From a virus, in IMG/VR virus record IMGVR_UViG_3300032323_003252, positions 1 through 49,077 of that record: 49,077 bases of DNA, one strand, 5' to 3'. Shown here in pieces: positions 4,205 to 48,408 of the stretch. Under the pieces are notes generated by a model. That model was not told where the DNA came from and searched no databases. It saw only the letters and a list, made by a program, of their open reading frames with translations. A program made the position numbers and the translations under genes. Every line of letters begins with the position of its first letter. Within the stretch, counting starts at the first letter, position 1.

Positions 4205-4894
4205 TTAAATTTGATGTCCTCCATTATTAATTTTAATACTATCAAAGAATTCTTGACGAGATAGATTATTATTATCCATAAACACACCTGATGCTTTTGT
4301 GGTAACCATTGAAGCACCTTGGTGTTTTACACCTCTACAGCTAACACAATTATGTGTAGCAACTACAGTCACAATAACACCTTTATTACCTTCAGTAATT
4401 TTATCTACTGCTTGGTGGATTGCTGATGTAAGTTGTTCTTGAATAGCACCTCTACGACCAAAATGTTCTACAATACGATTTAATTTACTTAAACCAATTA
4501 CTGAACCGCCTTCACCTACTACATAACCAACATGAACAACGCCTCCAATTGTTTGGTGGTGATGAGAACACATTGATGTAAGTGGAATATTTCTTTCAAT
4601 TACAATACCATCATAACCATCTGAGGGGAAAGCTGTAATGTCAGACATTGGTTCATATCTACCTTTCCATAGGTCAAATACATATGCTTTAGCTACTCTA
4701 CGAGGAGTATCTTGGGAATTAGGATCATTTCTCCAATCACACCCTAAAGCATCTAAAAATTGTCCATATGCTTCAGTTGCTCTATCTACCATTTCCCATT
4801 TTTCATCTTCGGTTAATGGAAAACCAGGGGCAACACCATTAGCATATCCTTGTTTTACTACTTCTAAATTTAATTTAAATGTTTTATTATTCAT
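4205..4894 (-). CDS. folE: GTP cyclohydrolase I (FolE), first step of 7-deazaguanine synthesis
   Basis: A 229-residue FolE of normal length from the ATG at 4894. A longer in-frame reading overlaps the HPRT gene and adds no conserved sequence. Zinc ligands are C109 and H112 in MCSHHHQTIGG, and C183 in THNCVSC. SVIGLSKLNRIVEHF and the C-terminal RGVKHQGASMVTT match the family. It converts GTP to 7,8-dihydroneopterin triphosphate, the substrate of QueD. No folate genes are nearby, whereas queD, queE, a queC-like gene and a dpdA-like gene are in the same run. The likely role is therefore DNA-base modification rather than folate supply. Confidence 0.95.
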   Translation of the reverse strand: MNNKTFKLNLEVVKQGYANGVAPGFPLTEDEKWEMVDRATEAYGQFLDALGCDWRNDPNSQDTPRRVAKAYVFDLWKGRYEPMSDITAFPSDGYDGIVIERNIPLTSMCSHHHQTIGGVVHVGYVVGEGGSVIGLSKLNRIVEHFGRRGAIQEQLTSAIHQAVDKITEGNKGVIVTVVATHNCVSCRGVKHQGASMVTTKASGVFMDNNNLSRQEFFDSIKINNGGHQI

Positions 4895-4910
4895 AACTCT
4901 TTGTAATATA

Positions 4911-5414
4911 TTAATCTTCAGGTAAATATCCAAGTATATGTGATAAATTCCTTTTTGTACCGTCAGCCGCATCTAATCCATATCCTACTAACCAATGTTC
5001 GTTTTGTAATTCAAAACCATAAATTAAATCAGGACTATTAGAATAATGCTTTTTAAATAACGTAACTGGGGTAATTGATTTTGGTTTTAGGTAATTTAAA
5101 TGTTTAATCAAACGATTCATAGTATTACCTGAATCGTAAATATCATCTACTAAATAAACATCTTTTCCTTCAATATCAATATCAATTGATTTTAGAATAC
5201 GAATTTCACCCTGCGATGTTCCTTCGTAAGATTTCGCACTTATAAAGTCTATATGGCAATCACCTACTTGTTTCACCAAGTCCGTAAAAAACATAAATGC
5301 GCCGTTTAAAACGCATATAAACACGGGAGATTGTTCGTGTTGTCTTTTTTTAATGTTGTAAGCAATTTCGCCTACTTTGTTTTTAATTTCTTTTTCTGTA
5401 AACAGTGTTATCAT
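4911..5414 (-). CDS. hpt: Hypoxanthine/guanine phosphoribosyltransferase
   Basis: A 167-residue purine phosphoribosyltransferase. The PRPP-binding loop is VYLVDDIYDSGNT. VFICVLNGAFMFFTDL matches the N-terminal strand and pyrophosphate loop. The base-binding region near the end reads LVGYGLDAADGTKRNL. It should convert hypoxanthine or guanine plus PRPP into IMP or GMP. Its ATG overlaps the stop of the upstream thioredoxin-like gene (ATGA), so the two are translationally coupled. It sits next to folE within the 7-deazaguanine block. One possible job, inferred here, is to salvage the guanine released when DpdA swaps bases in DNA, returning it to the GTP pool that FolE uses. Confidence 0.92.
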   Translation of the reverse strand: MITLFTEKEIKNKVGEIAYNIKKRQHEQSPVFICVLNGAFMFFTDLVKQVGDCHIDFISAKSYEGTSQGEIRILKSIDIDIEGKDVYLVDDIYDSGNTMNRLIKHLNYLKPKSITPVTLFKKHYSNSPDLIYGFELQNEHWLVGYGLDAADGTKRNLSHILGYLPED

Positions 5415-5669: not shown

Positions 5670-6072
5670 AAAGTTTAGAATCAGGAAGTTTATATTTATC
5701 TTTTACTGTTTGAGAAATAGATATAGGAGCTCCTTCATCATCTACTCTAACAAAAGTCATACTTGTTTCTAATAATGTAACCTCATCTCCTCTAAAAACA
5801 TTATATGCTCTTGCCTCTACTTTAAAGGTTGCTGAAGTGTTTCCTATTTTAGATACTTCAGCATATATTTTAACTAGATTTTTTTCTTTTGCTGGTTTTT
5901 TAAAAATACACTTATCTATAGCTACTGTAATCATGTTTTGGGATCTACATTTTTCCATTGCATAAGCAGCAACCGCGGCATCTATCCAGCTAAGTAATTT
6001 ACCGCCGAATAGATTACCGTGGAAACCTAAATCTAATTTTTTAACAGGATGTGTTGATAATAAATCCATCAT
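5668..6072 (-). CDS. Acyl-CoA thioesterase-like hotdog protein
   Basis: A 134-residue single hotdog-domain protein of the YciA/acyl-CoA thioesterase type. The signature is near the N-terminus: GNLFGGKLLSWIDAAVAAYA, the hotdog helix with its active-site region. MTVAIDKCIFKKPAKEKNLVKI and SMTFVRVDDEG follow the expected strand order. Family members hydrolyse acyl-CoA thioesters. Its start overlaps the QueE stop (ATGA), so it is coupled to the 7-deazaguanine genes. Why a phage keeps it there is unclear. It might act on a different thioester or modify host lipid metabolism. The fold is well supported, the substrate is not. Confidence 0.85.
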   Translation of the reverse strand: MMDLLSTHPVKKLDLGFHGNLFGGKLLSWIDAAVAAYAMEKCRSQNMITVAIDKCIFKKPAKEKNLVKIYAEVSKIGNTSATFKVEARAYNVFRGDEVTLLETSMTFVRVDDEGAPISISQTVKDKYKLPDSKL

Positions 6073-6854
6073 ACAGCACGTTTAGTATCGTAAGCAATAA
6101 TGTGATCTCTACCAGTCCAATTATAACCCATTTCCATACATTTTTCAATTGAAATAGGATACATATGAATCAATGTTTCTCTAGTATCACCAGCAGGCAT
6201 TAACCATGTTTTCCATTTTGGAATATCCATTTCAACTCTAAATGATTCAATTTCATTTAAATTTTCTTCAGTTCCATCCCATACTGGTTTAAAATGATAG
6301 TCACCATGATAAGCCATCATTTGAGACATTGCTTCTTTATTTAAACGAAGCTTATTGTGTTGATCAATCATTTTTTGGTCAACCAACTTACCCATTGGCG
6401 TAGTAACGTCAAGCTTTGGGACACTATTACTAAACTTAGGGCTAAGAGATACCAACCCGATTGGGTAATCTGTTTCAACGTAGTGAGAACCTTCTGTTTC
6501 AATGGTTATAAATATACCCCTAGAATAGGCAAAATGAGTAAGTTCATTTACTAAATCTGGTTGCATAGTTGGAGAACCACCTGTTAACATCATTTCTCTA
6601 ATATGAGGATTCTCATCATAGATTTTAATAATGTCGTTAAATGTATAAATACCTTTTTCTGGGTGAATACTTGTGTACCAAGAATCACACCAACCACCTT
6701 CACCAAACCAACATCTGTGGGTACATCCTGTTGTTCTAATAGCTATAGTTGGTCTACCTTGTCTTGAACCTTCTGATTGTACACAAGGATACAATTCAAG
6801 TAAAGGTAATTTTTTGTTATAGTCTGTAATACGACCTGGTTTTTTAATTTCCAT
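6069..6854 (-). CDS. queE: 7-carboxy-7-deazaguanine synthase (QueE), radical SAM
   Basis: A 261-residue radical SAM protein. The family signature is QSEGSRQGRPTIAIRTTGC followed by the cluster cysteines C44, C48 and C56. Here the second and third cysteines are seven residues apart (CTHRCWFGEGGWCDS), instead of the two residues of the common CX3CX2C motif, so the cluster loop carries an insertion. The glycine-rich SAM motif LTGGSP and ITIETEGS (as in other QueE proteins) follow. It converts 6-carboxy-tetrahydropterin to 7-carboxy-7-deazaguanine (CDG). It is next to queD, its substrate supplier, and overlaps the thioesterase gene. Confidence 0.93.
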   Translation of the reverse strand: MEIKKPGRITDYNKKLPLLELYPCVQSEGSRQGRPTIAIRTTGCTHRCWFGEGGWCDSWYTSIHPEKGIYTFNDIIKIYDENPHIREMMLTGGSPTMQPDLVNELTHFAYSRGIFITIETEGSHYVETDYPIGLVSLSPKFSNSVPKLDVTTPMGKLVDQKMIDQHNKLRLNKEAMSQMMAYHGDYHFKPVWDGTEENLNEIESFRVEMDIPKWKTWLMPAGDTRETLIHMYPISIEKCMEMGYNWTGRDHIIAYDTKRAV

Positions 6855-6856
6855 AA

Positions 6857-7321
6857 TTATCCTTTATAAAATGCTGTGTTTTTTTCATGTTCACGGAATT
6901 CAACTTGTACCACTCTAACACGACCTTCTGTTTCTGCTTGTACAAAATCGTTTAGCTTATTATAAAAATATTCAGCAAAACGTTCTGCTCCTACTGATGG
7001 TAGTATTCTTAGCTGTACAGCTCCGGTCGCGTCTAGTGTTTTAAAAGTATCTAATAATGGATCATCCTCTGCCATAATGGTTGTATGATCAAGCATATAA
7101 TCCATCCATGCTTTAGGATTCATACCATCAATAGTACCTTTAGCACGTTTCATACCACCAAAATCCCAAACCCAATTACGCTCATCAAGTTCACCTTCGA
7201 ACCATACTTTTAAACTTACTCCATAACCATGAAGAAACTTACAATGTGTTCCTTTGGCTCTCCATTGACGGAATACTGTTGAATAACCGTCAAATACTTT
7301 TGTTGATCTAAAACTACCCAT
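6857..7321 (-). CDS. queD: 6-carboxy-tetrahydropterin synthase (QueD)
   Basis: A 154-residue protein of the PTPS/QueD family. The catalytic Cys and zinc-loop region read HCKFLHGYGV (C27, H31). LDHT (D78, H79) supplies the usual Asp-His pair. PSVGAERFAEYFYNKL and the late Glu in VVQVEFREHEKNTAFY match family positions. The canonical HGH pair is HGY here, and the first zinc His of the usual xxAH motif is replaced within STVFRQW. I believe such FRQW/HGY forms make up a known subfamily, so this need not mean inactivation. It converts dihydroneopterin triphosphate from FolE into the QueE substrate. Its start overlaps the upstream thioredoxin by 8 bases. Confidence 0.9.
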   Translation of the reverse strand: MGSFRSTKVFDGYSTVFRQWRAKGTHCKFLHGYGVSLKVWFEGELDERNWVWDFGGMKRAKGTIDGMNPKAWMDYMLDHTTIMAEDDPLLDTFKTLDATGAVQLRILPSVGAERFAEYFYNKLNDFVQAETEGRVRVVQVEFREHEKNTAFYKG

Positions 7322-8439: not shown

Positions 8440-9309
8440 TTATTTATTATGTTCTTCTAAAACTTGTTTTACATATTCAACAACATATTCCCAAGTTACT
8501 GGGCCGAATTCATCAGCGTAATTCACTGCATCTCTTCTACCTAATTTCAAAAATGCTTCTACACGTTCAACTGAGGATGCTGATTTAAAATCGGAAAACC
8601 ATTCTTCATATTCTTCAACATCACCGTTATCTAAATGGTAATAAACTTTTAGTTTAATTGGTTTATAAGATGTGTTTGTACGTCTATAAACTTCATCAAA
8701 GTCTAATCCTAGTTGCTCACAACATACTAAACCATCTTCTAGAATAGTAAATTTATTTCCTTCCATATATGGAGTATAATAATTTACCAATTCAGAATTC
8801 CAGTTACCTATTTTAAAAGCATATTCATCTGCATTTCTGAAATTTTCGGTACAATCAGGATAAATTGTATGATCCCCGCTATGTACTCCCATAGCAATAA
8901 CACATTCTGTATTATTAGCTTCAGCAATAGATAAGGCAACTGCTTGAATAATTGAACTAAATATTTTGTTTCTATTAGGTACAACTGTTGCTTTCATATT
9001 TTCTTCAGCATAATGACCTTCAGGAACTTCTGCTCCACCTGTTACTAAAGCTGAGTTTAGTAGCTGAGATAAACCGTCAAGTTTAATTACTTGATACTTT
9101 ATCAATTCATAATCTCTAGGACGGTCAGACATGTAAGTTTGACCATTAATATAATTTACTAATTCCTGAGCGCGTTCAAGTTCAACTGAATGTTTTTGAC
9201 CATAGTCAAAAGATAATGCTGTTACTTCATAGCCGTTGGCAAGTAGATGAAGCAGTAGAGTGGAAGAATCCATTCCTCCACTCAATGACAATACTGCTTG
9301 CTTTTTCAT
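8440..9309 (-). CDS. queC-like: QueC-like ATP-pyrophosphatase lacking the zinc site
   Basis: A 289-residue homologue of 7-cyano-7-deazaguanine synthase. The PP-loop SGGMDS (residues 10-15), FDYGQKH, VPNRN and GVHSGDHTIYPDC follow QueC. Normal QueC has four cysteines binding zinc (CY..., then CGxCxxC before VERxEAF). Here the aligned residues are S214 (TNTSYKP), D240, S243 and S246 (SDFKSASSVERVEAF), so all four are lost while the surrounding sequence is kept. About 18 extra residues separate the two halves. QueC normally turns CDG into preQ0 with ATP and ammonia. This variant may catalyse a different ATP-dependent step on CDG. A phage CDG decarboxylase named DpdL has been predicted in the literature; whether it matches this variant I cannot tell. 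It overlaps the upstream gene by 1 base. Confidence 0.88.
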   Translation of the reverse strand: MKKQAVLSLSGGMDSSTLLLHLLANGYEVTALSFDYGQKHSVELERAQELVNYINGQTYMSDRPRDYELIKYQVIKLDGLSQLLNSALVTGGAEVPEGHYAEENMKATVVPNRNKIFSSIIQAVALSIAEANNTECVIAMGVHSGDHTIYPDCTENFRNADEYAFKIGNWNSELVNYYTPYMEGNKFTILEDGLVCCEQLGLDFDEVYRRTNTSYKPIKLKVYYHLDNGDVEEYEEWFSDFKSASSVERVEAFLKLGRRDAVNYADEFGPVTWEYVVEYVKQVLEEHNK

Positions 9310-10072: not shown

Positions 10073-10849
10073 TTATTTTAATAATTTTCTAAACATTCTT
10101 AAATTCCAATCCAACAAATTATAATCTATATCTGTTGTATAAAAGTGATCATTCATATTTGCTTTTGGTTTTTCAAGCAAACCGTTACGACCATATTGAA
10201 TACCATCAATTGTAGCCATAATTGGATTTGATGTATCAATTGTTTCAATAAAATCAGCATTTTTATACCAACTAAATTCTTGTGGTACCTGACAACCGAG
10301 TAAATGTACTCTATCATTTGGTTGAATTAAACCCATATTATACATTCTACTTACAACCTCAATTCTACCTAATGCTTTAGCAAGATTTTGGTTTGGATGA
10401 TTTGAGTGATCTAAATAATATTCAACACCATATGAAAATGCTATTTTTTCATAACCTAAATCTTTATATGTTTGATAACAAACTACAGCATCTAAAAAGT
10501 TTTGAGCTTGAACAACTGCTACTTTAGTAACACCTTTAGGTAATTTAACTTGAACCCATTCTCTAGCATTAACAATAGAAGCATTTGTATCTTGCCATAC
10601 ATCTGGTATGATAAATTCATTTGGTTTTAACTCATTTATCCAGTATAGTAAGCGAGATCTATCATATGCGTGACCAAGTTCGTGAAGTGAATTATCCATT
10701 ATAGTATAAACACCTTCTTGCTTTACTTTATAAAAGAAATTTTTATAATCTTCGTCCTGGTCTAATAAATGAGGTAAGCAATACTGATAATCATTGAAAT
10801 CTAGACTATCTTCTAGCAAACAAATAGGAACTTCATGACTGATTTTCAT
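10073..10849 (-). CDS. dpdA: DpdA-like guanine transglycosylase (7-deazaguanine insertion into DNA)
   Basis: A 258-residue TGT-superfamily protein, shorter than tRNA-guanine transglycosylases and without their zinc site, as in phage DpdA proteins. Likely catalytic regions are MDNSLHELG (D52), EFIIPDV (D83), FSYGVEYYLDHS, VHLLGCQVPQEF and ETIDTSNPIMATIDG (D205, probable nucleophile). DpdA enzymes exchange guanine in DNA for a 7-deazaguanine base, which protects phage DNA from restriction. The genes for precursor synthesis (queC-like, queD, queE, folE) follow in the same direction. An ATATTTAT element lies upstream. The subfamily (DpdA1, 2 or 3) cannot be decided by eye. Confidence 0.85.
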   Translation of the reverse strand: MKISHEVPICLLEDSLDFNDYQYCLPHLLDQDEDYKNFFYKVKQEGVYTIMDNSLHELGHAYDRSRLLYWINELKPNEFIIPDVWQDTNASIVNAREWVQVKLPKGVTKVAVVQAQNFLDAVVCYQTYKDLGYEKIAFSYGVEYYLDHSNHPNQNLAKALGRIEVVSRMYNMGLIQPNDRVHLLGCQVPQEFSWYKNADFIETIDTSNPIMATIDGIQYGRNGLLEKPKANMNDHFYTTDIDYNLLDWNLRMFRKLLK

Positions 10850-27981: not shown

Positions 27982-30246
27982 TTAGATAGGAGCGCTGTAA
28001 TCAACTTTACCTCCCAAAGATTTAATATTATTTCCTATGCTATAGTCTTGACGAGCAACAGCATTTCCTAAAGCCGCACCATTTAAATTTAATGATATTT
28101 CTGTATTAGCAGGAGCTACTTTAATTTCTTGTTTACTTGAAGCAGCAACTGGAGGAGCAACGTTTATACTGCCCTTAGGTCTGCTAATCATATCATTTAC
28201 TGGAATTGGATTGGTAGTTGCTATAATATTATCTCTATCGTTTAGAGCAAATGCTCCTTCGGGTGCTAATAATACACGTTTACCATATCCACCACCAGGT
28301 GAAAATAAGTCATCTGCTGATCTTGCTGCTGCTATTAGGCCTACAATTGCTCCAACACTACCTAAAATTACAGGAAGCATAGCTCCAAAAGAAACAGCAG
28401 TTGCGGCAGATGTTTCAGCGGCTGCTTTAGCTGTAGATAAACCTAACAAGACACCCATTTTAGCAATATTTTGACCTAATCCCATAGCCATATTTCCTAA
28501 AATAGCTCCACTAATTGCTCCTAATACAACTTTAAGTAATGTTGCATTAGATACTAAACTAGCAAAACCATCAACAATGGGTAATAATGCTTCAGCTAAA
28601 GGTATAAATGCTTCTTGAAGTTTTTCTGTTATGCTAGCAAATTTTTCTTGTATTGAAGCTGATTCAAGTTGGTTTGCTAAATTTTCATCACCAATTCTTT
28701 TTCTTGCCTCTTCAACACCATATTGAGCAACTAATCTATCATAAGCTTCTTTTTGTGTTTCTCCTTCTTTAGCACCTAATTTAGCTAAAGCTTCTCTCTG
28801 AAGTAATGTTTCAGCTAAAGAATCTTTAGTTAAACCTAAAGATTTAGCTAATGCCTCTTGCTGTAAAACATTCATTTTTTGGAAATCAGCAGCCGAACCT
28901 ATGTTTTTAGCTACTTCATCCGCTAACATTGCCTGGTCACCTATTAAAGCAGCATATCTTGCTCCTTCTAGATTTAATTGTTTACCAGTCATCAATTCAG
29001 CAGATAATTCATCTTCAATAGATGATTGGAAATTTAGTAAAGAATCAGATACTGAGGCTAGATCTTTTAATTCCATACCTAAAGCTTTTGCTTTAAATAC
29101 AGCAGTAGCTATAGCTTCAGCCGAACCACCTAATTGTAATTTAGTAGCGGCAGATACGTTTTTAATTCCTTCTAAAACTTGTTTTTCATTTATTGCTAGA
29201 CCAGTTTGTGCTTTTAAAGCTTTAACTTGACCTTCAAATTCAGCTGTAGTTTCTTTAAGTCCTTTACCTGTTAAAAAGGTTGTATCTTGTAAAGCACCTA
29301 AAGTTTCTACTGATATTCCTGCTTTTTTATTTAATTCAGTAAATGCTACTAAGTTTTCTTCACTAAAGTCAGCAAAAGTACCATATCTACTATTTAAAGC
29401 TTGGAATGTTTCGTTTAACTTTGATGTTGTTATAAAATTATCATTAGAAGACCTTGCAATTCCACTAAGTTCTTTATTTAAATCATTAGCTTGATCTTTC
29501 GAAATACCAAAATTACGAGCAGTACCTGTAGTTAATTCGTCTATTTTTTTAATAGTTGATACTATACCGGCAGCGGCTGCTGAAAACAATACTAATGGAT
29601 CTGTTAAATTAGATGCTAAATCTTTACCAAGCTGTTTACCTGCTGCTCCTAAAACTTTTAATCTATTTCCTCCTTCTTTAGCTGCTTCAGCTTGTGCTGC
29701 TGCTAATGCTTTTTCTGAGTTTATAAATTCACCTAGGATTGGTATTTTATTTATACCTTTTAATAGTCCACCAGTTACTCCTAAGTTTTTATTAATTTTT
29801 TCTCCATAAGCTACTTGATCTTCTAATAAAGCATTTTGATCATTAATAGCTTCATTTAATTCAGCTTCTTTAGCAGCTCTAGTAGTGGCATCTATTATTC
29901 CTCTTTCTTGTAATGATTTTAAATTAGCGGCTATTGCTGCTCTTTTAGTTTCATTTTGAGCTATTTGTTTTTGAATATCAGAAACTTTTGCTGATCCTGT
30001 TGCTAATTTAAAGGTATTAGTTAATATAGTATCAGAACCTTTAGCTATTTCTTTAATACTTTTATCTAATCTTTTAGCAAATATTTCAGCAACTGTATCA
30101 GCACCATCTCTAACATCTTCGATAGCGGATTTAATTCGATCGGATAAGGTATTGGCGATACTTAAAAGTTGGTCTTCTAAGTTTCCTAACTCCTCGTTTA
30201 CTCTTTTTACGTCTTCCGGTTTAGGAATATTTGGATTATCAGCCAT
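27982..30246 (-). CDS. Tail tape measure protein
   Basis: A 754-residue, mostly helical, Ala-rich protein. A coiled-coil N-terminus (RVNEELGNLEDQLLSIANTL...DRIKSAIEDV) is followed by long helices. A strongly hydrophobic region at about residues 555-650 (LLKVVLGAISGAILGNMAMGLG...AVSFGAMLPVILGSVGAIVGLIAAA) looks like the membrane-penetrating part. The end (GYGKRVLLAPEGAFALNDRDNI) is typical of tape measure proteins. It sets tail length and is ejected before DNA. It is the longest tail-core gene and lies directly after the gp26/gp51 pair, the usual place for a tape measure after its chaperones. Confidence 0.88.
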   Translation of the reverse strand: MADNPNIPKPEDVKRVNEELGNLEDQLLSIANTLSDRIKSAIEDVRDGADTVAEIFAKRLDKSIKEIAKGSDTILTNTFKLATGSAKVSDIQKQIAQNETKRAAIAANLKSLQERGIIDATTRAAKEAELNEAINDQNALLEDQVAYGEKINKNLGVTGGLLKGINKIPILGEFINSEKALAAAQAEAAKEGGNRLKVLGAAGKQLGKDLASNLTDPLVLFSAAAAGIVSTIKKIDELTTGTARNFGISKDQANDLNKELSGIARSSNDNFITTSKLNETFQALNSRYGTFADFSEENLVAFTELNKKAGISVETLGALQDTTFLTGKGLKETTAEFEGQVKALKAQTGLAINEKQVLEGIKNVSAATKLQLGGSAEAIATAVFKAKALGMELKDLASVSDSLLNFQSSIEDELSAELMTGKQLNLEGARYAALIGDQAMLADEVAKNIGSAADFQKMNVLQQEALAKSLGLTKDSLAETLLQREALAKLGAKEGETQKEAYDRLVAQYGVEEARKRIGDENLANQLESASIQEKFASITEKLQEAFIPLAEALLPIVDGFASLVSNATLLKVVLGAISGAILGNMAMGLGQNIAKMGVLLGLSTAKAAAETSAATAVSFGAMLPVILGSVGAIVGLIAAARSADDLFSPGGGYGKRVLLAPEGAFALNDRDNIIATTNPIPVNDMISRPKGSINVAPPVAASSKQEIKVAPANTEISLNLNGAALGNAVARQDYSIGNNIKSLGGKVDYSAPI

Positions 30247-34337: not shown

Positions 34338-34349
34338 ATAATAAATATT
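34338..34349 (-). promoter_or_regulatory. ATATTTAT element before the 219-residue gene
   Basis: The coding strand reads AATATTTATTAT, 2 bases before the ATG. It overlaps the stop region of the LamG gene upstream. Confidence 0.45.
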
Positions 34350-35001
34350 ACAAACCAAATCTTCCTTTTTGAGCGTTATAGTTTTGTAGGATTTCCGCAT
34401 TAGAAAGCCCTCTATTGTAAACCATTGTTGTATAAATTTTTCCATTATATTGTTCGTTAGTAGTAGAGTTAGTTCCAATTCTAAAGTTTGAATTTGAATT
34501 CCCTATTGAAGCATTTGAACTGCCTGTACTTATTACTATTCCATTTTTTAAATAGTTAGTTGTAGTTCCAATTCTTCTTCCAGCAATCATAGTAATTGAT
34601 GTTGTGAAATTACTAGTAGAAGCATATGCACTGCTATTATCTAACCATAAAAAAACATAAGAATTGGACCACCCAAATTGTAAATTACCAGAATTATAAT
34701 TACCAAAGGTAGTTCCAACACCAGCACCATTAGATTGAACCCACTGAATTATTGTAAAGTCACTAGTTCCAGATAATAACCCATTTGGTAAATTAACATA
34801 ATCATCCGACCCATCAAACACAATTGATGATGCATTTCCAGCAGAACTAAAGGTAGGACCATTTGTTAATGTTCCATTATTTGATCCTGCTAAATCTCTC
34901 CACGTAGTAGAACCTGATGTATATGAATTTTGGTCTGAGGCATCTAGGGATAAAATTAGACCGTCTGTAACTATTCTTCCATTTGCGTATTGTGTTGCCA
35001 T
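34348..35001 (-). CDS. LamG/concanavalin-like adhesion protein (paralogue 6)
   Basis: A 217-residue single LamG-like domain: VTDGLILSLDASDQNSYTSGSTTWRDLAGSNNGTLTNGPTF, then SIVFDGSDDYVNL, FTIIQWV, a variable central part, and IYTTMVYNRGLSNAEILQNYNAQKGRFGL at the end. Such jelly-roll domains bind sugars and often sit at tail fibre tips. It is one of six related genes in the window. Five of the six end in RFGL or RFGI, perhaps a docking peptide. The variable part lies between about residues 85 and 150. Confidence 0.88.
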   Translation of the reverse strand: MATQYANGRIVTDGLILSLDASDQNSYTSGSTTWRDLAGSNNGTLTNGPTFSSAGNASSIVFDGSDDYVNLPNGLLSGTSDFTIIQWVQSNGAGVGTTFGNYNSGNLQFGWSNSYVFLWLDNSSAYASTSNFTTSITMIAGRRIGTTTNYLKNGIVISTGSSNASIGNSNSNFRIGTNSTTNEQYNGKIYTTMVYNRGLSNAEILQNYNAQKGRFGL

Positions 35002-35002
35002 A

Positions 35003-35683
35003 TTATAATCCGAATCTACCTTTTAAGGCGTTAAAATTTTGTTGAATTTCTGCTTGTGAAAGCGCTCGATTGTACATACTAGCATATGCTATTTTTGCAT
35101 TAACATATCTACCTATAGTATAATCTGTACCTATCATAAGATTAGTTCCCACAGTTGTATTTGCTGTTACATTTGTATACGAACGTACAACAACATTATT
35201 ATTTACTTGAAAAATAGATTGTGTTGGATTCACAGAAACACAACAAAAACACCATGTATTAAGGGGAATTGGTATTCCAGGATCATAAAGATATGTATTA
35301 GGATCATCATTCCAATGATATCCGATTCCTGTAGGTGTTGGGTATAACAAGTTCATTCCTGTTGTGCTTCCTCCTCCTCCTCTATTAAATACTAATCCTG
35401 TTCCTTGAGTTCCGTTATTGTATCTATTAATTATTATTGTAAAGGTTAATGCATTAGATGTTATACTATTTGTATTACAAGTAATAGAATCATTTGTTCC
35501 ATCAAGTACAATTGACCCTAACGACCCAGTATCAAAAGTAGGTCCATTATTTAATGTTCCATTATAAATTCCTGCTAAATCCCTCCATGTAGTAGAACCA
35601 GAAACATATGAATTTCTGTCACCAGCATCTAATACTAGTACTAATCCGTTTGTTACTATGGTTGGTCCGTTTGAATAACTCAT
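35003..35683 (-). CDS. LamG/concanavalin-like adhesion protein (paralogue 5)
   Basis: A 226-residue relative of its neighbours. It has TNGLVLVLDAGDRNSYVSGSTTWRDLAGIYNGTLNNGPTFDTG, IVLDGTNDSITC, a divergent middle with CFCCVSVNP, and the shared end ASMYNRALSQAEIQQNFNALKGRFGL. The next gene follows after 1 base. It has its own ATATTTAT element. Sugar or surface binding at a fibre tip is inferred from the fold. The unusual cysteine run in the middle is not seen in the paralogues. Confidence 0.88.
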   Translation of the reverse strand: MSYSNGPTIVTNGLVLVLDAGDRNSYVSGSTTWRDLAGIYNGTLNNGPTFDTGSLGSIVLDGTNDSITCNTNSITSNALTFTIIINRYNNGTQGTGLVFNRGGGGSTTGMNLLYPTPTGIGYHWNDDPNTYLYDPGIPIPLNTWCFCCVSVNPTQSIFQVNNNVVVRSYTNVTANTTVGTNLMIGTDYTIGRYVNAKIAYASMYNRALSQAEIQQNFNALKGRFGL

Positions 35684-35687
35684 TTAT

Positions 35688-35697
35688 GATAAATATT
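35688..35697 (-). promoter_or_regulatory. ATATTTAT element before LamG paralogue 5
   Basis: The coding strand reads AATATTTATC, 4 bases before the ATG. Confidence 0.45.
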
Positions 35698-35698
35698 T

Positions 35699-36415
35699 TT
35701 ATAGTCCAAAGCGTGCTTTTTGTGCGTTGTAGTTTTGGAGGATTTCTTGGGCTGAGAGTGATTGATTATACATTATAGAATTACTTATATTTCCTTTAAA
35801 AGGAGCAACAACACCAGATGTTTTAGTATAAGTTCCACCGACAATTACTTTATTATTTACAGCATCATACCCCACACCGCTAGACCAAGTTGTATTAATA
35901 TCAAGAACTCCATTAACATAGCTTTTCATATTAAGACCATCATAAGTTATAGAAATTTGATACCATGTATTTATATTAATTGTTGTAGTTCCAGTTATAT
36001 CAATGTATAATCCAGCTCCACTGCCTGTGTTTGCTCCTACCACATATCTAACTTTATGTGGGTTGTTCCATAATTGACAGAAAAAACCAGCTACTAATAA
36101 TTCTGAGTAACTACAAAAGATACCTTGTTGTCTTCCATCACTATCGGTATTATACACCCAAGAACTTAAGGTAAATGTAGAAGGTCTAAGGATTAAAGGA
36201 TTACCACAATCAACATAATCATTAGTTCCATCAAATACAATACTACCCAACGACCCAGTATTAAAAGTTGGCCCATTAGTTAAAGATCCAGAATTATTAT
36301 TTCCTGATAAATCATACCAAGTAGTCCCAGACCCAGGATAAGAATTTTTATCGGCTGCATCTAAGGATAGTACTAATCCTGTTTCTACTGTATTTGGTCC
36401 TCCGTGTACGGGCAT
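35699..36415 (-). CDS. LamG/concanavalin-like adhesion protein (paralogue 4)
   Basis: A 238-residue protein with the clearest LamG pattern. VETGLVLSLDAADKNSYPGSGTTWYDLSGNNNSGSLTNGPTF and FDGTNDYVDCG come first, then FTLSSWVYNTDSDG, WYQISITYDGLNMKSYVNGVLD and KVIVGG. It ends SIMYNQSLSAQEILQNYNAQKARFGL. This resembles LamG repeats that bind polysaccharides. It opens the second triplet of paralogues, next to the 1016-residue fibre and the 91-residue protein. Confidence 0.9.
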   Translation of the reverse strand: MPVHGGPNTVETGLVLSLDAADKNSYPGSGTTWYDLSGNNNSGSLTNGPTFNTGSLGSIVFDGTNDYVDCGNPLILRPSTFTLSSWVYNTDSDGRQQGIFCSYSELLVAGFFCQLWNNPHKVRYVVGANTGSGAGLYIDITGTTTININTWYQISITYDGLNMKSYVNGVLDINTTWSSGVGYDAVNNKVIVGGTYTKTSGVVAPFKGNISNSIMYNQSLSAQEILQNYNAQKARFGL

Positions 36416-46344: not shown

Positions 46345-47067
46345 TTAATCATAATTAAATCTAAGTTTATAATAATTGTATAAACTAACTATTTCACTAT
46401 TAGATAAAGCTCTATTATATAAAGATACAACTCCCATTTTACCTCTAAACATTTCATCATTACCATCTCCTCCTATTACTATATCTTGAGAATTACCTGT
46501 TGTTGTTAAAGCATCACTTGATACTTGTACTCCATTTAAAAATCCTTGAGAGGAAGAAGCACCAATTCTAGCTACAGTAAAATAATATTTATCTCCTGTA
46601 TAATTAGTATATAAATCAGGTGATGAGTTAAAAGCTGTTGGGGTTTCTATATGTAAATATCTTAAACTAGAACCAGGTCCTGTTTGATTTATTGAAACTG
46701 CTACTCTTTGGTCAGGGTCTTTTTTACTATATAAAGCCATCCACGGTGTATCTCCACTAGCTAATATTTTAGTTTGTAAAGTATGAATTAAAACTACTGT
46801 TTGTTGAGTTAAATTAGTTAATGTTGGAGTATTTGTAATAATAAATTGGGCATTATTTCCTATAGTACCTGCTGAAAAATTAAAATATCCTAATGAATTC
46901 CACTGTGGGGAATTTACATCTGATGTTTTTATAGCATTATGTCCAAATCCTGACAGGTCAAACCATGTATTTCCTGTACCAGGATAGGAATCTCTATCAC
47001 TAGCATCTAATAAAAGAACTAAATTACTTGTAACAGGGAGTAAAAGATTTGAAAATTGTACTGACAT
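46345..47067 (-). CDS. LamG/concanavalin-like adhesion protein (paralogue 3)
   Basis: A 240-residue LamG protein: VTSNLVLLLDASDRDSYPGTGNTWFDLSGFGHNAIKTSDV, LTQQTVVLIHTLQTK, a central KDPDQRVAVSINQTG, then IVIGGDGNDEMFRGKMGVVSLYNRALSNSEIVSLYNYYKLRFNYD. The ending is RFNYD instead of RFGL/RFGI, so it is the most divergent of the six at its C-terminus. Its start region lacks the motif 'NGPTF' present in most of the others. Sugar binding is inferred from the fold. Confidence 0.87.
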   Translation of the reverse strand: MSVQFSNLLLPVTSNLVLLLDASDRDSYPGTGNTWFDLSGFGHNAIKTSDVNSPQWNSLGYFNFSAGTIGNNAQFIITNTPTLTNLTQQTVVLIHTLQTKILASGDTPWMALYSKKDPDQRVAVSINQTGPGSSLRYLHIETPTAFNSSPDLYTNYTGDKYYFTVARIGASSSQGFLNGVQVSSDALTTTGNSQDIVIGGDGNDEMFRGKMGVVSLYNRALSNSEIVSLYNYYKLRFNYD

Positions 47068-47073
47068 AATTAT

Positions 47074-47754
47074 TTATATTCCAAACCTCCATCGGTTTGC
47101 ATTAAAGTTTTGTGTTATTTCTGCTTGAGTAAGTGCTCTATTATATAATCTATAAATAGCTTGATATCCTATAAAAAAACCAGCACCACCATAACCAACC
47201 CCTAAATTTATATTAGTAGTTCCTATATAAGACTGTATTGTACCTGATCCTTGTAATACAGCATTTTTATATATTTGGCAAGCACCGTTAGATACATTAT
47301 AAGTATAAACAATTTGATACCAGTTATCTAAAGCTACAGTACCTGCTTGAAAATCATATGATGGAGGACTACCATAATGACCTTGATATATAGTTCCATC
47401 TCGAAACATTAAATGTAAACCTTGTCTTATAGAAGCACCTCCATCACCAAATATTCCTCTATCTCCTACTAAACTTTGAGAAGGATAAACCCAAGCTTCT
47501 GCTGTATAACTTGCATCATACATTCCTAAACCAGTAGCATTTTTATTTAAACTTATAAATCCACCACCTCCATAAACAAAATAATTATTTAAATTCCAAC
47601 TAACTGTACTTCCAAAAGTTCCTGTTGTTGTTAAATCTACAGCATTATATACTGTAGTTCCTAATCTAGGGTAAGATGTAGTATCTATAGCATCTATAGA
47701 AAATGTTAAACCATTATCTACAATTAGTGGTGGTCCTCCTGAAATTCTTCCCAT
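47074..47754 (-). CDS. LamG/concanavalin-like adhesion protein (paralogue 2)
   Basis: A 226-residue LamG protein: DNGLTFSIDAIDTTSYPRLGTTVYNAVDLTTTGTF, YTAEAWVYPSQSLVGDRGIFG, DNWYQIVYTYNVSNGACQIYKNAVLQGSG, GVGYGGAGFFIGYQAIYRLYNRALTQAEITQNFNANRWRFGI. The first third is divergent, but the WxYPS strand, the WYQIVYTY strand and the final helix are typical. The paralogues on both sides follow after 3-6 bases. Confidence 0.88.
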   Translation of the reverse strand: MGRISGGPPLIVDNGLTFSIDAIDTTSYPRLGTTVYNAVDLTTTGTFGSTVSWNLNNYFVYGGGGFISLNKNATGLGMYDASYTAEAWVYPSQSLVGDRGIFGDGGASIRQGLHLMFRDGTIYQGHYGSPPSYDFQAGTVALDNWYQIVYTYNVSNGACQIYKNAVLQGSGTIQSYIGTTNINLGVGYGGAGFFIGYQAIYRLYNRALTQAEITQNFNANRWRFGI

Positions 47755-47757
47755 AAT

Positions 47758-48408
47758 TTATATTCCAAACCTCCCTCTATTCATGTTAAAAATTTGAGTC
47801 ATTTCTGTAGTTGTAATTATTCTATCATATATTAATAAAAAACTAAATTGAGCTGTACTATATTCTGATGAACCTGGCGCATATCTACCTAAAGTTATAC
47901 CATTAGGACCAGCAGAACCACCATTATTTTGAACTACAAAATTATTATTTACATAAAATCCATAACTATCACCTGAGATGTTTCCATTACTTGCATATAT
48001 TCTCCAGTTAGTATCACTAGTACCAGCTTGAATTGATGATACCCATCCTTCAGCATAATAGTTTTCAGTAGAATTATTCCAATGACCCATTAACCAGTTA
48101 TTTGATGTAGCATTAATTATTCTTCCTCTAGTAGCTCCACTATATCTAGCAGCACCCATTACAGTATAATTACTAGATGTTAAATTAGGAGTATTACTAA
48201 AAACATAATCATCATTTCCATCAAATACTAATACACCACCGTTTGATGAATTATATGATACTCCATTTACTAATGTACCGTTATTACCATTTTCTGATAA
48301 GTCATAAATTGTAGTACCAGTTCCTGGGTATGAATTAGGATTAGAAGCATCCCAATAAAGTATTAAATTATTACCTATAATTGAGGGAGGACCTATACTA
48401 AAAGCCAT
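47758..48408 (-). CDS. LamG/concanavalin-like adhesion protein (paralogue 1)
   Basis: A 216-residue LamG protein: GNNLILYWDASNPNSYPGTGTTIYDLSENGNNGTLVNGVSYNSSNGGVLVFDGNDDYVF, a middle with NWLMGHWNNSTENYYAEGWVSSI, and the end FSFLLIYDRIITTTEMTQIFNMNRGRFGI. It opens the first triplet, 4 bases after the fibre cut by the window edge, so it may be made and assembled with that fibre. Confidence 0.88.
   Translation of the reverse strand: MAFSIGPPSIIGNNLILYWDASNPNSYPGTGTTIYDLSENGNNGTLVNGVSYNSSNGGVLVFDGNDDYVFSNTPNLTSSNYTVMGAARYSGATRGRIINATSNNWLMGHWNNSTENYYAEGWVSSIQAGTSDTNWRIYASNGNISGDSYGFYVNNNFVVQNNGGSAGPNGITLGRYAPGSSEYSTAQFSFLLIYDRIITTTEMTQIFNMNRGRFGI

Follow-up and report, generated by a model that had tools for sequence, protein, structure and literature searches.

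The virus record IMGVR_UViG_3300032323_003252, a stretch of 49,077 bases referred to here as the window, encodes a QueC homologue in which the zinc-binding cysteines of the family have been replaced. This raises the question of whether such a protein still converts CDG to preQ0 or has taken on another reaction. By reading of the sequence, the record carries T4-like structural genes. A 7-deazaguanine cassette on the minus strand holds FolE, QueE, QueD, the QueC homologue and a DpdA-like gene, interspersed with thioredoxin-like, phosphoribosyltransferase and unknown genes. No QueF was found in the 49-kb window; the record is a fragment, and QueF may sit elsewhere in the genome. Also by reading, six similar paralogues lie near tail-fibre-like genes (34348-36415 and 46345-48408), and their proteins have in common an early segment of the "LDA...SY..GTTWYDL" type, like a repeated lectin-type domain. 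The features of the cassette and of the QueC homologue are as follows.

4205..4972, minus strand: FolE, GTP cyclohydrolase I, true start probably downstream (PF01227, 144.3 bits)
6069..6854, minus strand: QueE homologue, radical SAM (PF04055; phrog_2076, 156.5 bits)
6857..7321, minus strand: QueD homologue (PF01242, 54.6 bits; phrog_2389)
8440..9309, minus strand: zinc-less QueC homologue, 289 amino acids, ATG start (PF06508, 127.8 bits; phrog_1550, 131.5 bits)
8572..8670, minus strand: residues 214-246, former zinc site with S214, D240, S243 and S246, and Y215 inside (alignment columns)
8593..8664, minus strand: residues 216-239, enlarged loop, predicted beta-hairpin, length varying among relatives (model and loop lengths)
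8851..8862, minus strand: YPDC, residues 150-153, CDG-recognition motif (role of Tyr/Asp from PMC13279940)
8968..8982, minus strand: VPNRN, residues 110-114, canonical VPxRN
9181..9204, minus strand: YGQKHSVE, residues 36-43, canonical YxQxHxxE (motif from PMC13329287)
9265..9282, minus strand: SGGMDS PP-loop, residues 10-15, ATP pyrophosphatase signature
10073..10849, minus strand: candidate DpdA, short TGT-fold DNA guanine transglycosylase, 258 amino acids (homology and Foldseek search of the model)

Residue numbering and an alignment anchored on E. coli QueC (reference row, queC of NC_000913) confirmed the starting observation of the sequence-only reading, namely that all four zinc cysteines are replaced: S214, D240, S243 and S246 occupy exactly the four ligand columns of C...CxxCxxC. 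These columns hold S/D/S/S in 158 of 158 phage-type relatives, the QueC of Flavobacterium phage immuto included, and CCCC in 93 of 95 zinc-type or reference rows, the two exceptions being one gapped row and one further zinc-less sequence in that set. The replaced segment is itself conserved, running W(F/Y)SD(Y/F)KSA(S/A)SVER in most phages, and the adjoining VERVEAF, first described as unchanged, is so broadly in phages but varies in Thiotrichales. Membership in PF06508 is clear, the score given above standing against a cut-off of 22; the Pfam QueC match stops at profile position 185 of 210, so that the zinc end is the part that fails.

The PP-loop SGGMDS and the other QueC signatures are intact in the window protein, as had been read. 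SGGxDS, YxQxHxxE, VPxRN, YPDC, a conserved Lys and the Tyr following ligand position 1 are kept in nearly all of the 158 phage and 80 cellular relatives. According to PMC13329287, E. coli QueC mutants show that Y35, R99, Y131 and Y189 are required for preQ0 formation; the equivalents of all four are retained in the zinc-less clade, Y215 being the equivalent of an essential E. coli Tyr. The Tyr/Asp of QueC that recognise deazaguanine (PMC13279940) are likewise retained. The window protein thus carries the motifs of canonical QueC, as given for cluster 1 in PMC13329287, and lacks the C(x)8CxxCxxC zinc motif, and it was therefore filed as a member of a zinc-less sister clade and not as canonical QueC.

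Zinc ligands might have been displaced elsewhere in the protein; however, the conserved Cys and His columns contain no conserved replacement set. H40, H99, H143, H147 and C153, which are invariant or nearly so, are also common to zinc-type QueC, and the clade-leaning C136, C197 and H287 are not invariant and are too few for a site. The insertion noticed at the outset is real, as the segment between ligand positions 1 and 2 comprises 25 residues in the window protein versus a median of 7 in zinc-type QueC, but it does not take the place of zinc. This segment ranges from 9 to 42 residues across the phage clade and is only 9-12 residues long in the zinc-less cellular relatives, and the loop at residues 216-239, a hairpin in the predicted model, is therefore regarded as an addition rather than a zinc replacement.

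In viral contigs, a DNA pattern for the replaced motif matched at least 120 stretches, and at least about 600 proteins were matched in scans for the zinc-less clade, so this is a common class among viruses. Bacterial and archaeal genomes, when scanned, added 80 cellular relatives, 41-57% identical, from Thiotrichales (Cysteiniphilum and Facilibium among them), marine group II/III Euryarchaeota, planctomycetes and Verrucomicrobia. None of the 80 has a cysteine at ligand positions 2-4, and position 1 is lost as well in 79; one marine group III sequence retains the first zinc cysteine. The archaeal ligand columns are mostly S/S/S/D, and the Thiotrichales/gamma group has the phage pattern S/D/S/S. 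The C-to-S/D changes define a clade: a single branch with 100/100 support separates all zinc-less sequences from the rest, "clade" here assuming, with the midpoint root used, that the root lies among zinc-type QueC. The 100/100 split persists on a maximum-likelihood tree built without the zinc region and everything after it. The textbook view, repeated in the sequence-only reading, that the zinc site of QueC is nearly universal is contradicted by this clade.

Several individual records deserve mention. A contig binned as Woesearchaeota (L207) carries a zinc-less QueC and DpdA and groups within the phages in the tree, and is thus probably a misbinned phage. One phage record (G016, the record of L029) has two QueC genes, at 28948-29577 and 75683-76318, both scoring as the zinc-less type. 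Many marine group II archaea encode the zinc-less QueC as an in-frame fusion to an MsrB-like (methionine sulfoxide reductase) domain, recognised by sequence motifs; loci with this fusion include L208, L209, L213-L215, L219, L518, L519, L521-L523, L528, L529, L534, L535, L538, L539 and L541.

In 24 whole genomes, the cellular evidence coming partly from metagenome bins, no full-length QueC other than the zinc-less one is present, the exception being a Phycisphaerae bin (G060) that has both QueC types and looks mixed. Among 116 Thermoplasmatota genomes, the zinc-less motif was verified in 24 and a canonical-scoring QueC was present in about 82 (counted by score, not by motif), with both in none; the second QueC copies checked in doubled Thermoplasmatota genomes are zinc-type paralogues. 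Archaeal loci read FolE-QueE-QueC, often with QueD, and archaeal TGT accompanies archaeal zinc-less QueC, TGT being present in 21 of the 24 genomes. Archaeal matches to QueF were discarded, as they fell below the cut-off and several lay in the FolE position immediately upstream of QueC. QueF, QueA and TGT occur together in five of five Thiotrichales/gamma genomes, and these three constitute the queuosine route downstream of preQ0. The proposal that the protein performs some other ATP-dependent reaction on CDG fares poorly against these observations, since there are archaea and bacteria that possess the remainder of the tRNA archaeosine or queuosine pathway and have no QueC other than the zinc-less type, and the residues for preQ0 formation are kept.

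In phages, the stretch that holds QueC also holds DpdA in 121, QueD in 118 and QueE in 111 of 158 loci, and in the window the gene lies near queD and queE as the sole QueC of the preQ0 pathway. Such company shows involvement with CDG, but not which product leaves the enzyme. QueF, which reduces preQ0, is encoded together with a formyltransferase in phage immuto and in four other phage records, all of which have a zinc-less QueC as their sole QueC; this company argues that the zinc-less QueC delivers preQ0, although in these phages a host QueC could in principle supply it. The earlier expectation that the DNA base would be CDG, 7-deazaguanine or an amide (the ALTERNATIVES of the sequence-only reading) is probably wrong. 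The formyltransferase-like gene lies near the DpdA and QueF genes in the QueF-bearing phages (NC_055915.1, 35039-37015; L061, L080 and L345), and this position suggests a formylated preQ1 base. Altogether, the conserved residues and the gene company make it very probable that the window protein is a zinc-independent QueC that makes preQ0 from CDG and, in this phage, supplies it to DpdA for incorporation into DNA.

The candidate DpdA has no Pfam match; its relatives are phrog_19058 and proteins from the Campylobacter CP220 group (34-36%) and from Flavobacterium phage immuto. Its model (pLDDT 95.7) finds tRNA-guanine transglycosylases and the DNA preQ0 insertase DpdA 7UI4 as best PDB matches, and the Foldseek E-values of 2.8e-7 to TGT and 7.8e-7 to 7UI4 point to a TGT-like fold. 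Gene 10073-10849 might belong to DpdA subfamily 3, which we take to bring about full guanine replacement in DNA. QueE has its cluster cysteines as Cx3Cx7C (GCTHRCWFGEGGWCD), as in 89 phage loci, versus the usual Cx3Cx2C. The window QueD has F, C, H and Y at the positions of E. coli QueD H16, C27, H31 and H33, of which H16, H31 and H33 bind zinc in QueD structures. Among the QueD sequences aligned, two of these three histidines (H16 and H33) are replaced at 114 of the 117 phage loci, with F, C, H, Y in 92 and I or L, C, H, Y in a further 22, and at 12 of the 15 cellular loci, all 12 with F, C, H, Y. Most QueD neighbours of zinc-type QueC have H, C, H, H, but Cellulophaga phi3ST:2 and BcepGomr combine a zinc-type QueC with a QueD of F, C, H, Y. 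A PDB search with QueD returned no match.

Two pathway enzymes, QueC and QueD, therefore look altered at their zinc sites. Zinc sparing in the ocean was considered as a driver and can be at best partial, because an alignment to GTP cyclohydrolase I 4DU6 shows that FolE keeps its zinc Cys/His/Cys. It is conceivable, though we consider it doubtful, that the preQ0 pathway was rebuilt to dispense with zinc at two steps, QueC (all four ligands) and QueD (two of three), in a single lineage common to abundant marine archaea, Thiotrichales, some planctomycetes and verrucomicrobia, and hundreds of phages, in which case chemistry or cofactor use may differ and QueF-less phage members might release a product other than preQ0.

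A change of reaction is improbable in the form of a CDG decarboxylase, or another CDG-modifying enzyme, that in the absence of zinc would activate or bind CDG, yield 7-deazaguanine and leave dDG or dCDG in the DNA. DpdL is reportedly such a phage CDG decarboxylase, by prediction. The altered site of the window protein adjoins an essential Tyr, and the QueC relatives QatC and Cap9 have changed their reaction, according to PMC13329287 and PMC13279940. However, no other QueC accompanies the zinc-less type in genomes that encode either QueF, QueA and TGT or archaeal TGT, nor in the phages that encode QueF beside it; its substrate motifs are all kept, and a strictly kept ATP-pyrophosphatase loop is not expected for plain decarboxylation. 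Quite improbable, too, is an enzyme that stops at the amide ADG, an intermediate of QueC, which would fit phages with dADG in their DNA. The Campylobacter CP220 phage group has dADG in its DNA, and the DpdA of the window is related to proteins of that group. Nevertheless, the CP220 QueC keeps its four cysteines but has YGSNH and FPDC, whereas the window protein has the canonical YGQKH and YPDC, and the QueF-bearing relatives need the nitrile.

The AlphaFold model of the QueC homologue (mean pLDDT 92.8, 54-row alignment) has QueC 2PG3 and 3BL5 as best PDB matches, with Cap9 (9NTO) also among the best fold matches. The latter resemblance could be taken to mean that the protein, like Cap9 and QatC, conjugates a deazaguanine to a partner protein, but this is very improbable. 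Cap9 and QatC keep the zinc cysteines (PMC13329287 and PMC13279940) and are recognised by these and by CD-NTase or QatABD partners; the window protein has no such cysteines, no CD-NTase or Qat genes are among its identified neighbours, which are the preQ0-pathway and phage genes FolE, QueD, QueE and DpdA, and the cellular members sit in a preQ0 operon. That the gene is a pseudogene, or a dead homologue retained in a structural role, as the loss of a hallmark motif might suggest, is hardly credible: it is full-length and evolves under purifying selection, with a dN/dS of about 0.2-0.25 relative to its closest relatives, its replacement residues are invariant in 158 phages, and many genomes have this type as their sole QueC. 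These data agree with the original view that the gene is not decayed, and the loss of the zinc site is neither chance nor decay.

In a zinc-independent preQ0 pathway of this kind, the FolE, QueD and QueE of the phage would convert GTP to CDG, and QueC would carry CDG through ADG to preQ0 with ATP and ammonia. The DpdA encoded at 10073-10849 would then replace guanine of the phage DNA with preQ0 or one of its derivatives, an exchange that presumably serves restriction resistance. The zinc knuckle of canonical QueC may be an element that holds the fold, one that would have been replaced once, in one lineage, by a serine/aspartate cluster with the adjacent essential tyrosine kept. A preQ0-type DNA base is accordingly predicted for a large group of mostly aquatic phages, with a preQ1 derivative as an option where QueF is present.

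In the 2026 survey of PF06508 (PMC13329287), the zinc motif C(x)8CxxCxxC counts as a hallmark by which canonical QueC is known, and its available part makes no mention of a zinc-less clade in the preQ0 pathway. In the literature searched, whose scope excluded most subscription papers, we found no description of a zinc-less QueC and no settled account of the role of the QueC zinc. Because a natural clade lacks the ligands only, and serves as the sole QueC of whole organisms, the zinc question is directly testable. For annotation, a missing zinc motif is not on its own evidence of a new reaction, and matches of zinc-less QueC to family profiles break off or weaken at the zinc end.

Compared with known systems, the window protein is alike to canonical QueC (E. 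coli, B. subtilis; PDB 3BL5, 2PG3) in fold, in SGGxDS, YxQxHxxE, VPxRN, YPDC, the Lys and the Tyr that follows ligand position 1, and in gene company. The two differ in that canonical QueC has the zinc cysteines, whereas the zinc-less clade has S/D/S/S or S/S/S/D and, in phages, a variable inserted hairpin. The QueC of Flavobacterium phage vB_FspM_immuto_2-6A (YP_010114440.1) is 62% identical, has the same zinc-less motif and is likewise accompanied by DpdA, QueD, QueE and FolE; unlike the window, immuto also has QueF and a formyltransferase, and its base is therefore probably a preQ1 derivative. The QueC proteins of marine group II/III archaea and Thiotrichales belong to the same clade, having lost the zinc cysteines and kept the full motif set, but are chromosomal, are the sole QueC and serve tRNA-modification pathways, and the archaeal form is often MsrB-fused. 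Zinc-type relatives with similar substrate-site stretches include Tres, a Rosebush-type phage: the QueC proteins of the actinophages Rosebush/Tres, Finch and Sonali are 34-37% identical and have the GHYAxxNM and HxGDHxVYxDC stretches in common with the window protein, but keep the CCCC zinc site, and Rosebush DNA carries dPreQ0 (PMC6884629). Finally, QatC and Cap9 resemble the window protein in using CDG-like chemistry on a QueC-derived fold, and differ from it in their retained zinc, protein substrate and defence context.
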